This document shows, in pieces, positions 13,702 through 17,212 of a stretch of 64,000 nt of DNA (position 1 is the stretch's first letter; every line of letters starts with the position of its first letter). This DNA is from Tabrizicola flagellatus (lineage in GTDB: Bacteria; Pseudomonadota; Alphaproteobacteria; Rhodobacterales; Rhodobacteraceae), in the NCBI RefSeq assembly GCF_008271465.1, contig NZ_VMDU01000004.1:124001-188000 (forward strand), read 5' to 3'. The translations under genes were made by a program, and so were the position numbers. The notes under the pieces were generated by a model. It ran no database searches. It was not told the DNA's origin and saw only the letters and a list, made by a program, of their open reading frames with translations.

Positions 13702-14688
13702 TCAGTCTGCCAGGACAGCCCGCCCCCGGCCCGCGTGTTTCGCCGCATAGAGCGCGCGATCCGCGGCGGCGCTCACCTGTGCGGCTTCGGCGGAGGGACA
13801 GTTCGCCGACCGGACGATGCCGATACTGGCCGAAACCCGGATGGCATGACCCGCGAATTCCATCGGTTCGCCCACCCGCGCGATGATCCGATTGGCAATG
13901 GCCTTCAGCGTCGCCGCCTCCGAACGCCCCGCGACGATCAGCACGAACTCGTCGCCGCCGATCCGCGCGGCGCAGTCCTCGGACCGCAGCTGATCGCGCA
14001 GGATCCGGCCCACGCGTTCCAGGACGAAATCCCCCGCCGCATGGCCCAGCGTGTCGTTGACCGCCTTGAAATGGTCGAGGTCCATGTGCATCAGGCCGAA
14101 ATTCGACCGCGCAGCGCACAGGCGGTCGAGGATCAGATCGACCGCCCGGCGGTTGCGCAGACCGGTCAGGGGGTCGGTCATCGCCTCTTCCTCGGCCGCG
14201 ATCCGGGCGCCTTCCAGCCGCAGGTTCAGCCCCTTCAGCTCGCGCGTGACGGCGGAAGTGGCCTCGGCCAGGAACAGGACTTCCGTCGCCATGTCGGTGG
14301 CCGCGAAATCCGCATCGGTCAGACCGTGGTCGCGCACCGCACCGACCGGATCGACAAAGGTCAGGTTCAACAGGATCCGGCCGTCCCAGGGCAGGCTCTG
14401 GCCATGGCCGCGCAGACCGCAGCGCCTTTCCGTCCTGGTCCATAGCCGGAACCGATGCCCGGCCCGTTCCAGAACCTCGTGCACGGTCACCGCGCCACCG
14501 GGCGAGCGCACCTCGAACATCTCCTCGAACGGGGTGCCGAGCCTCGCCTTGTCCTGCAGGACCTGCGCCAGCGTCGGGCCGACGCTCTGGGCGCAGCCAT
14601 CCGCCCCCAGCAGAAGATGCATGGGCATGAACCGCGCCAGCGTGATGCTGTCGATCTTCAGTCGCGCACCGGTCAAGTCGCGCCGCAT
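13702..14688 (-). CDS. HNOBA-GGDEF diguanylate cyclase
   Basis: A 328-residue protein predicted to make cyclic-di-GMP. Residues about 10-150 match the H-NOX-associated (HNOBA, PAS-like) domain: the start KIDSITLARFMPMHLLL and the block WDGRILLNLTFVDP followed by GLTDADFAATD are typical. A helical linker follows, then a GGDEF domain (about 165-325) with DPLTGLRNRR, MDLDHFKAVNDTLGH and the intact active site GGDEF. The inhibitory I-site RSED lies exactly five residues before GGDEF, so product inhibition is expected. It starts 3 bases after the H-NOX-like gene, so the two are one operon; in other bacteria such pairs form an NO-sensing complex. Confidence 0.88.
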   Translation of the reverse strand: MRRDLTGARLKIDSITLARFMPMHLLLGADGCAQSVGPTLAQVLQDKARLGTPFEEMFEVRSPGGAVTVHEVLERAGHRFRLWTRTERRCGLRGHGQSLPWDGRILLNLTFVDPVGAVRDHGLTDADFAATDMATEVLFLAEATSAVTRELKGLNLRLEGARIAAEEEAMTDPLTGLRNRRAVDLILDRLCAARSNFGLMHMDLDHFKAVNDTLGHAAGDFVLERVGRILRDQLRSEDCAARIGGDEFVLIVAGRSEAATLKAIANRIIARVGEPMEFAGHAIRVSASIGIVRSANCPSAEAAQVSAAADRALYAAKHAGRGRAVLAD

Positions 14689-14691
14689 CGC

Positions 14692-15267
14692 TCAGCGCCC
14701 CGGGAAGGCCAGGTCGAAGGCACGGGCGCGCGAGTGCCGGCTGTCAAGCACCGAGATCGTGACGACCTCGTCCTTGCCGGCCTCGATCAGGCACAGGGCC
14801 CCGTAGTCGTCTGCCATGGCCATCAGCATGCCGGCCAGCACGCGCGGCATCCCCTTCAGCTTCGACCGGCAACGCAGCTCGAACCGGTCGGGACCCACCT
14901 CGCTCAGCAGGATTTCGGGCGGATCCAGATCCGGAAGCGCCAGGCGCGCACGGCCCGGCAGTTCCTCCAGCGAATGCAGGAAGTCGCTGAACGAGACCCC
15001 GCCAAAGCGCAAGAGCCTGCGAACCCCTTCATGCGCGGGGCTCGTCACCAGATAGGTTCCGACATCCTCCCAGATCGCATGGACAGGGCGGCCCAGCACC
15101 TCTGCGGCGGTCTCTGCGATCCGGTCGGCAAGGCCCGGCGGATAGCGCAGCATCGGCTCGAACGTCGGGCCCGGTTGACCGGCAGCATCGCAGATGTCCT
15201 TCCAGCGGGCCTCACCGAAGGTATCCAGTACATAGTTCTGCACGGATCGCAGCAAGAGCGCATCCAT
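14692..15267 (-). CDS. H-NOX-like (HNOB) sensor protein lacking the canonical heme ligand
   Basis: A 191-residue stand-alone H-NOX fold protein. The start MDALLLRSVQNYVLDTFGEARW matches the conserved N-terminus of H-NOX proteins over its first 22 residues, and IWEDVGTYL, FLHSLEEL and DPPEI align with later family blocks. In canonical members the proximal heme His follows the FL..LD..H helix; here the equivalent stretch reads FLHSLEELPGR, with Pro or Gly at that place. The propionate-binding YxSxR motif reads CRSKL. Heme binding is therefore doubtful, although a His lies about six residues earlier. I chose ATG at 15267 rather than 15309 because it starts the family N-terminus. It is the upstream partner of the HNOBA-GGDEF gene. 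Confidence 0.8.
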   Translation of the reverse strand: MDALLLRSVQNYVLDTFGEARWKDICDAAGQPGPTFEPMLRYPPGLADRIAETAAEVLGRPVHAIWEDVGTYLVTSPAHEGVRRLLRFGGVSFSDFLHSLEELPGRARLALPDLDPPEILLSEVGPDRFELRCRSKLKGMPRVLAGMLMAMADDYGALCLIEAGKDEVVTISVLDSRHSRARAFDLAFPGR

Positions 15268-15338
15268 TCCCGACCTCGCAGACGGATTCGCAGCCACAGT
15301 AGCGCGCATGTCTTAACGGAACCTCCATCCGCGCCGGG

Positions 15339-17069
15339 TCACGGCTGAATCATCAACCCTGTCTCGCCGGTGCCGAGCTGGTTCAGCAGGGCCGGCGTCA
15401 CGGGCGGAGGACTGTCCTGGTAGGCCCGCATCAGATCGGCCGCCTCGGTTGCGCTGAAGTAGCCACCGTCCGGACGAGACACGCCACGCTGCACCACCCG
15501 CCCGTCGGGGCCGAGGTGCAGCCCCAGGATCTCGACATAGTCGGTGCCGCGCCGCAGGAACAGCACCGCCTCCTCGCCGGGCAGCACGGGCATCAGGTCC
15601 GCCACGACCATCAGACACGCCGGACCTGCCGGGTCGGATGCGGCGGCACAGACCTGGTTCCAGTCCCGCAGCATGTAGGCCTCGGCCGCGTCGAGGAACG
15701 TGTCCCGTGTGCCCGTGGCCGTGGCCGGCTGCACCTGCAGCGCCGCCGCCACCGCCGCGCGCAGGGTGTCCTGCTCTGCCTCGTCGGGCCCCAGCGTCTC
15801 GCCGGTCAAGAGCCGGGCAAGCATCTCCTGCCCCGGTTCCTTCGCCTTCGCTTCCAGCACCGCCACAGCCTCGGCACCCGGCTTGCCCCAGCCGCGCATG
15901 GCCTGGACATCCAGCGCCTCGACCGGGGTCCGACCGTCAAGAAACCGCGCCAGCTGGCTTTGCGCCGAGATGCGCTCGGCGTTCAGGATCGGGGTCAGCC
16001 ACAGCGCCGCCAGCGCGATGACCACCAGCGCCATCCTGATGTTGCCCTGCCGGATCCGCTCCATCCACGGCCCGCCGCGCAGCACGGCCTGGGCATAGAC
16101 CAGGCCATAGGCAACCCCGAGGCCGGCGACCAGCGCCACGAAGACCCGGTCGGGCGACCAGCCATGCTCTGCCACCCGCAGCCGGATCGCCCACAGTGCA
16201 AGGCCGGCCAGGACCGGCAGGATGATCGCCATGGCCTGCGCCGAACGGCGCAGCACCGGGCTTCCGGCCGCCTCCTCGTCCGACTGGTCGACCGCGATCG
16301 AGACCAGCGCGATGCCGCCGCCCACCAGCGTCAGGAGCAGCAGCGCCGGAGAGAGATCGCCGGCCAGCCCCGACAGACCCCGGAACGGCAGGGCGACCAG
16401 GAAGACCACCATAACCGCCAGCACGACCGGCAGGAACAGCCGGAACAGGCGCAGCACCACATAGGGCGACAACAGGTCGGCAAGATCATGGATCACCGCC
16501 ATGCCCAGCCCCAGCACCGCGCCGCTCACCACCATGACAACAAGCTCCTGGCGCAGCAGCGAGCCGATAACGTTGATCCCCACGATCCGCAGGACCTCGT
16601 TCGACAGGTAGATCACCAGCCAGACCAGCCCGGTGAACGCCACCGCGGCGGCAAAACGCAAAACCACCGACCAGGCTTCCAGGAACAGCGCCGGGTAGTC
16701 ACGCCAGCCCGTCCTGGCGGCTGCGATCAGGAACGGAACCGGCAGGCCTGCCACCGTCAATGCCGCAAGCACCGGCAGCCCGCCGCGCAGGAACTCGTCC
16801 GGGGTCGCATAGCGTAGCATGCTCAGCGCCAGAAGCCCCGCAAGCACGACCGCCAGCCCCGTGGCGCGCGGCAGGGCCCGTCCCAGGCCAAGCGGCCCGG
16901 CCATGCCGAGAAGCGCTGCGAACAGCGTCATCAGGGCGCCGATCAGGATCAGCGCGGGGTAATCCCCGATCCAGCCCCGCCCCGCCGCCTTTGCCGCCGC
17001 CCAGAGAAGCGCCCCGCCAAGGGCGCCCGCCACGGCAAGCTGCAACCGCGCCGCAATCTGCCCTGTCAT
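15339..17069 (-). CDS. DUF4153-domain membrane protein
   Basis: A 576-residue protein whose first ~390 residues hold about ten hydrophobic membrane segments, matching DUF4153. The conserved-looking core includes FLEAWSVVLRFAAAVAFTGL and the aspartate-containing DQSDEEAAGS loop. The final ~190 residues are soluble and contain a Cys-bearing stretch. The function of the family is unknown. ATG at 17069 has AGGAGG six bases upstream and is preferred over the in-frame start at 17084. It is monocistronic, oriented toward the H-NOX operon. Confidence 0.8.
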   Translation of the reverse strand: MTGQIAARLQLAVAGALGGALLWAAAKAAGRGWIGDYPALILIGALMTLFAALLGMAGPLGLGRALPRATGLAVVLAGLLALSMLRYATPDEFLRGGLPVLAALTVAGLPVPFLIAAARTGWRDYPALFLEAWSVVLRFAAAVAFTGLVWLVIYLSNEVLRIVGINVIGSLLRQELVVMVVSGAVLGLGMAVIHDLADLLSPYVVLRLFRLFLPVVLAVMVVFLVALPFRGLSGLAGDLSPALLLLTLVGGGIALVSIAVDQSDEEAAGSPVLRRSAQAMAIILPVLAGLALWAIRLRVAEHGWSPDRVFVALVAGLGVAYGLVYAQAVLRGGPWMERIRQGNIRMALVVIALAALWLTPILNAERISAQSQLARFLDGRTPVEALDVQAMRGWGKPGAEAVAVLEAKAKEPGQEMLARLLTGETLGPDEAEQDTLRAAVAAALQVQPATATGTRDTFLDAAEAYMLRDWNQVCAAASDPAGPACLMVVADLMPVLPGEEAVLFLRRGTDYVEILGLHLGPDGRVVQRGVSRPDGGYFSATEAADLMRAYQDSPPPVTPALLNQLGTGETGLMIQP

Positions 17070-17212
17070 CCGCACCTCCTGCATCCTGCCGCCGGTTATT
17101 GGCTCCGGCCTTGGGGCGGCATAGTCAGGATTTCCGTCCGGTTGCCAAGCCCCTTGCCGGGGTGCAGGCTGGCCTGCCTGCGGTCAGAGGCCGTGGATCC
17201 CGTTCCGAAGAT

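Follow-up and report, generated by a model that had tools for sequence, protein, structure and literature searches.

The window analysed here, a stretch of 64,000 nucleotides from Tabrizicola flagellatus, carries on its minus strand an hnoX-like gene (14692–15267) encoding an HNOB/H-NOX domain protein of 191 residues that lacks the proximal histidine. Three bases (14689–14691) separate its stop codon from the start of a partner diguanylate cyclase (DGC; minus strand, 13702–14688), a 328-residue protein with a PAS/HNOBA-like domain, a long helix and a GGDEF domain. The start codon of the hnoX-like gene, an ATG at 15267, agrees with that of its relatives, with a further in-frame ATG upstream at 15309 that would extend the protein by 14 residues. 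Upstream on the minus strand lies a gene for a 581-residue protein (15339–17084) with no Pfam match above cut-off; a relative of it is present in 37 of 59 related loci, and stands directly upstream in the 12 of these for which the order was read. This set of 59 loci was found with seed peptides including DFLHSLEE, overstates conservation at that place, and was not used for the counts given below.

The relationship of the protein to H-NOX, claimed in a preliminary description of this DNA, is well founded. It matches Pfam HNOB (PF07700) with 78.7 bits (E = 6e-22), three times the cut-off of 25.5, and is the only such match in the 3.6-Mb genome, its closest named relative being from Rhodobacter calidifons (83% identity), followed by proteins of Tabrizicola and other Rhodobacterales (70–74%). 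A phmmer search of solved structures returned Nostoc H-NOX Alr2278 as the top match (E = 1.1e-14), with the alignment spanning residues 4–152 and interrupted just once, by a gap of one residue following residue 33 and well away from the ligand helix, such that residues 34–152 align without gaps. The AlphaFold2 model (mean pLDDT 86.6, pTM 0.84, 35 alignment rows) has one unbroken helix at residues 93–110 spanning the ligand site, and Foldseek places it closest to 2o09, the structure of Nostoc Alr2278 (TM 0.78/0.81). The window protein is thus predicted to keep the H-NOX fold.

The ligand column and the heme motifs

In the phmmer alignment Nostoc HARVGLSFP lies on PGRARLALP of the window protein, placing the proximal heme-ligand histidine on Pro104 (codon CCG, minus strand, 14956–14958), and Nostoc YQSTR lies on CRSKL (residues 133–137, minus strand, 14857–14871), which replaces YxSxR, the heme-propionate motif. 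The assignment of Pro104 to the ligand column is based on gapless sequence alignment within a matching predicted fold. The window protein therefore has neither the proximal histidine nor the YxSxR motif of heme-binding, NO/O2-sensing H-NOX, as the preliminary description had observed, and retains their conserved proline as Pro117 (minus strand, 14917–14919), the equivalent of Pro115 in the Tt protein.

Of the 394 genomes of the bacterial family, nearly all of different genera, 296 have a match to PF07700. The sample used for counting comprises the non-canonical matches in genomes G032–G220, about one per genus; by hand count, 131 of these genomes have an HNOB match and 127 of the 131 carry a gene of the window's clade, making the clade type the commoner H-NOX of the family. 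The 133 sample loci divide into 128 of the clade and 5 canonical ones, and removal of the second piece of one broken gene (L171) and of a fragment (L167) left 126 genes from 126 genomes; L168, L170 and L198 were also left out of the trees, and L169 and L215 additionally of the conservation table, which holds 121 rows from the clade and 34 distinct rows from canonical loci. The profile by which loci were sorted into the clade included one canonical row (L091) when it was built; this row and its twin L271 lie outside the sample. In a class-wide sample of 385 genomes, four contained strong clade members (>250 bits), all of them belonging to the same family and one being the genome of the window, with weaker matches (53–103 bits) in six further genomes, five of them from other families.

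Across the 126 clade genes the ligand column holds proline in 93, histidine in 9 and another residue in 24 (Asn 5, Gln 4, Ala 3, Arg 3, Thr 2, Gly 2, Ser 2, Asp 1, Glu 1, Lys 1). All 30 loci from the window's genus carry Pro104, so the substitution is no chance event. YxSxR is found at the motif position in none of the 126, the histidine-bearing genes included, and two clade genes have the pattern at another place, close to where the open frame ends, whereas Pro117 is kept in 126/126. The canonical H-NOX loci of the same family (38, of which 34 are distinct) retain the histidine in 37 of 38 and YxSxR in 35 of 38. One locus of canonical type (L224; G117:C4:117000-120900) has glutamine replacing the proximal histidine beside an intact YxSxR (YHSDR), in a genome that also carries a Pro-type gene (L225) of the class described below as Group 5.

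The preliminary description proposed that the histidine of FLHSL (His98; minus strand, 14974–14976) might serve as ligand instead, a suggestion that is not credible. When the protein is aligned with H-NOX structures and relatives, it is Pro104 that falls at the ligand column, six residues from His98 on the one predicted helix, a spacing that would probably also turn His98 away from the ligand face. Although well kept in the window's genus (26/30), His98 is present in only 71 of the 126 clade genes (55 of the 93 with Pro104), and 51 of the 126 have neither His98 nor His104. Furthermore, column 98 is charged in 32 of the 38 canonical loci (Glu 22, Asp 6, Lys 2, Arg 2), which suggests a surface position. 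His2 and His76 were likewise considered as general substitutes and rejected, being common in the clade (107/126 and 85/126) and replaced in the window's genus, where position 2 is Asp in 30/30 loci and His76 remains in 1/30. Cys133 is present in 66 of the 126 clade genes and in all 30 loci of the genus.

Constraint, the partner cyclase and the history of the ligand residue

The hnoX-like gene is under purifying selection, with a dN/dS of 0.22 to its nearest copy and a median of 0.26 over 169 pairs within the genus, and is carried by 30 of the 32 genomes of the genus, among them all 23 of at least 90% completeness and at most 5% contamination. Residues E67, D68, R83, R84, R87, A152 and D153 are near invariant in the clade and variable in canonical H-NOX, while W22, E37, G90, R106 and Y155 are near invariant in the clade and mostly replaced by another residue in canonical H-NOX. 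By conservation within the clade the ligand column comes only 88th among 175 columns, with F96, L97, S99, L100, L103 and R106 near invariant around it.

The partner DGC reads RSED-5-GGDEF, comprising an RxxD I-site (residues 235–238, minus strand, 13975–13986) and a GGDEF active-site motif (residues 244–248, minus strand, 13945–13959), so that the intact cyclase noted in the preliminary description 3 bases from the hnoX-like gene is indeed present. Its further designation as an HNOBA-GGDEF protein holds in part. The GGDEF domain scores 137.9 bits against Pfam, and the HNOBA match, at 21.7 bits, falls under the cut-off of 23.4, though an HNOBA match at E ≤ 0.1 is obtained in 37 of 39 aligned partners (best 6.7e-13). 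GGDEF is matched in 39/39 of these, with the GGDEF motif and both defining residues of RxxD invariant in all rows. The model of the partner (pLDDT 90.0, pTM 0.57) has, at residues 24–111, strands and helices arranged in a PAS-like way, then a long helix at 134–169 and the GGDEF domain, with a PAS-GGDEF-EAL protein as the best PDB match by E-value.

A DGC follows the hnoX gene in 125 of the 126 clade loci, the remaining one (L230) being cut off by the fetched stretch; 110 were scored by a distance rule and 15 were read from overlapping frames, in which the DGC frame overlaps that of hnoX and continues for ~1 kb beyond it. All 110 rule-scored DGCs have GGDEF and match a profile of the N-terminal part, and 108 of the 110 have RxxD five residues upstream of GGDEF. 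At none of the loci are hnoX and the DGC fused into a single frame, and the long frames seen (823, 586 and 496 residues) contain no DGC. One canonical, histidine-bearing H-NOX of the same family (L100) has a DGC-like gene directly downstream, and is the sole match to this DGC among the 38 canonical loci, many of which are short.

Histidine at the ligand column is scattered over the clade tree, with the fewest changes between His and not-His being 12 and 11 on two FastTree trees of weak support (on one of them, 10 of the 134 inner branches are starred), such that a better tree might need fewer. Histidine in the canonical outgroup rows favours repeated loss, the trees themselves being compatible with either direction of change. 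To examine correlates, four histidine-bearing genes from outside were added to the nine of the family sample. Of these 13, 12 have Ser8, compared with 31 of the 124 remaining genes (p = 2.8e-6, one of 865 tests), and Ser8 is also present in 26 of the 30 loci of the window's Pro-type genus, which speaks against it as a mark of the His-type. Trp135 is found in 6/13 against 6/124, and Trp or His at this position in 10/13 against 10/124 (two rows summed), with the Trp135 covariation reduced to 2 independent pairs on supported branches, in a region where the alignment is gapped. With kinship uncontrolled, the covariation of Ser8 and Trp/His135 with the ligand histidine may be regarded as a lead.

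Denitrification was considered as a reason for histidine retention and rejected, nitrite reductase being present in 8 of 13 His-type and 40 of 107 non-His genomes (Fisher p = 0.13). Nitrite reductase was scored as NirK (TIGR02376) or cytochrome d1 (PF02239) at E ≤ 1e-30, the second of which also catches NirS relatives and so makes the nirS count generous, and ten of 117 non-His genomes were left out (nine of 73–84% completeness, and G067, in which the gene is broken). The genome of the window has no match to NirK or cytochrome d1 at E ≤ 1e-30.

Relation to published H-NOX systems

The preliminary description implied that the altered protein was new. The same loss has in fact been published for Paracoccus and Rhodobacter, Kumar and Spiro (2017) having described the H-NOX of P. 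denitrificans, like that of R. sphaeroides, as lacking the axial histidine (PMC5588039), and Lee-Lopez and Yukl (2022) having defined "Group 5" H-NOX from the P. denitrificans protein Pden_3719 (PMC8738867). Group 5 is reported to have <10% histidine and mostly proline at the ligand position and no conserved cysteine, with what it senses openly called unanswered (PMC8738867). Our sample, with 9 histidines and 93 prolines in 126 genes, agrees with this picture of the ligand position. On its sequence the window protein is an example of this group, given Pro104, the proline-rich column of the clade, and the adjacent GGDEF gene both in the window and in nearly all sampled loci. Beyond the passages of those papers available to us, our sample adds the loss of YxSxR and the retention of Pro117 in 126/126, the scatter of histidine, and the neighbouring DGC in 125/126.

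The H-NOX of P. denitrificans, read here from strain HAMBI_2443 rather than the strain of the mutant study and taken as the same gene as Pden_3719, resembles the window protein in its proline at the ligand column, its adjacent GGDEF gene and 35% identity over 187 residues, and differs in beginning MHGLIN where the window protein begins MDALLL, and from the window's genus in the His98 (26/30) and Cys133 (30/30) kept there. The hnoX mutant of P. denitrificans is reported to lack BapA, form less biofilm and grow poorly when attached, whereas a dgcAB mutant overproduces BapA and biofilm (PMC5588039). Their suggestion is that NO causes H-NOX to inhibit DgcA, with NO also acting independently of H-NOX and DgcA (PMC5588039). 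Deletion of hnox in P. denitrificans is further reported to alter central carbon metabolism, c-di-GMP having been beyond detection in that group's attempt to test the model (PMC12582929).

Control by NO has been described for Dinoroseobacter shibae, where NO-bound H-NOX inhibits Dgc1 (Bedrunka 2018, as cited in PMC7232146 and PMC8846402), and in L. pneumophila, S. woodyi and D. shibae the NO-bound form is reported to make the DGC less active (PMC8846402). The D. shibae genome of our sample (G066) was recognised by a contig identical to plasmid NC_009955.1 over 3,000 bases. Its single HNOB protein (Dshi_2815; 219.8 bits to the clade profile) belongs to the window's clade, has the same adjacent DGC and likewise lacks YxSxR, with CIWHR at that position in strain DFL12 (L123). 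In contrast to the window protein, it keeps histidine at the ligand column (DLHDRARLA), and its reported NO control of the cyclase should therefore not be carried over to Pro-type proteins. Neither this contrast between the D. shibae histidine and the P. denitrificans proline nor a group-wide loss of YxSxR was found stated in the literature searched, which included few subscription papers.

Nostoc Alr2278 (2o09) shares with the window protein the fold, the gapless alignment over the ligand helix and the proline equivalent to Tt Pro115, and differs in having both the proximal histidine and YxSxR. The H-NOX domain of the soluble guanylate cyclase alpha subunit is a natural heme-free H-NOX. It resembles the window protein as a heme-free H-NOX fold kept as the regulatory part of a nucleotide cyclase, and differs in being covalently part of a cGMP cyclase; chain A of 8hbe, which is this subunit, is a weak Foldseek match to our model (E = 4.7e-4). 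Heme-independent control has also been proposed for the redox-sensing, heme-free H-NOX of V. cholerae, which in contrast uses a Cys-zinc site and keeps the histidine, Group 5 having no conserved cysteine as published (PMC8738867).

Possible roles of the Pro-type protein

With both heme motifs lost, the gene under selection, the fold predicted to be intact, and a cyclase with complete motifs encoded in the same operon, the reading we favour, with a probability of just under one half, is that a Group 5 H-NOX fold no longer holding heme in the classical manner has been kept as a dedicated regulatory subunit restraining the HNOBA/PAS-GGDEF cyclase of the next gene. Rupture of the iron–histidine bond frees the ligand helix of an H-NOX. 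In ordinary H-NOX, activation is considered to require this rupture when NO binds (PMC12329717). The Pro-type protein cannot form such a bond and would, on the simplest reading, have its helix permanently in a released-like state, probably without stoichiometric heme. It would most likely dock on the PAS/HNOBA domain of the cyclase through its conserved helices and hold the cyclase down, as the NO-bound protein does in ordinary systems, acting as a standing brake or a differently gated subunit, with c-di-GMP output set by the level of the subunit or by a signal other than NO-heme. We infer the inhibitory sign, with which the phenotypes of the Paracoccus mutants agree (PMC5588039). An altered or heme-free sensor controlling c-di-GMP, as first suggested in the preliminary description, is therefore the natural reading of the fold, the two lost motifs and the adjoining cyclase, once the His98 ligand and the claim of novelty are set aside. 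Against this restraining role, Kumar and Spiro still propose that NO acts through the H-NOX (PMC5588039), and the literature searched contained no assay of cofactor, partner binding or cyclase activity for a Pro-type protein.

The best placed of the alternatives, though it appears unlikely, is that the protein still binds heme, either unligated or held by some other residue, and detects NO by forming a five-coordinate nitrosyl. In principle the pocket could hold heme without the histidine, and the equivalent of Pro115 in every sampled gene may mean that the pocket, in a model that keeps the H-NOX fold, is still used. A solved Fe(II)CO structure of the Shewanella H103G H-NOX indicates that a protein of this kind can be made to hold heme without its histidine, and a few clade members do keep the residue, including D. 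shibae with its reported NO-dependent inhibition of Dgc1 (PMC8846402, PMC7232146). Against retained heme stand the absence of YxSxR in addition to the histidine and the lack of a conserved alternative, with His98 at 71/126, neither His98 nor His104 in 51/126, and His2, present in 107/126, replaced by Asp throughout the window's genus. Moreover, within the literature searched, NO control in the clade is reported, at second hand, only for a histidine-bearing member.

Less probable again is that the emptied pocket binds some other small molecule, such as another tetrapyrrole, cobalamin, a lipid or a metabolite, and signals its presence to the cyclase. Strong conservation of the protein alongside release of the ligand column would fit such a change, as would the altered central carbon metabolism of the P. 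denitrificans hnox deletion (PMC12582929), whereas the best-kept His/Cys column of the clade is that same His2, and its replacement in the window's genus leaves no residue that could be a general new ligand. It is very improbable that the gene is the decaying remnant of an NO sensor, as the dN/dS of about 0.22–0.26, the presence of the gene in 30 of 32 genus genomes with all 23 good ones included, the many invariant residues and the knockout phenotype in Paracoccus (PMC5588039) outweigh the scattered residues at the ligand column and two apparently broken copies, one with two overlapping partial matches (L169/L171; G067:C34:227479-227944) and one with an in-frame TAA stop (L215; G207:C2:234643-235104).

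Returning to the restrained cyclase, a broader and more tentative proposal, which we would put well short of probable, is that within one family a gas-sensor domain has been turned many times into a heme-independent cyclase subunit, with the presumed partner-facing residues fixed and the ligand residue free to vary. The histidine-bearing minority, with Ser8 and Trp/His135, may still sense NO, and the Pro-type would answer another, non-NO signal.

The observation of the preliminary description is thus confirmed and its interpretation plausible, in a class that is already known, large and found throughout one bacterial family, and the interest that remains lies in what Group 5 senses. In the clade and the literature searched, calling these proteins NO sensors rests on the histidine-bearing exception. 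The family holds natural histidine and proline versions of the same operon, making the dependence of this regulation on heme directly testable.
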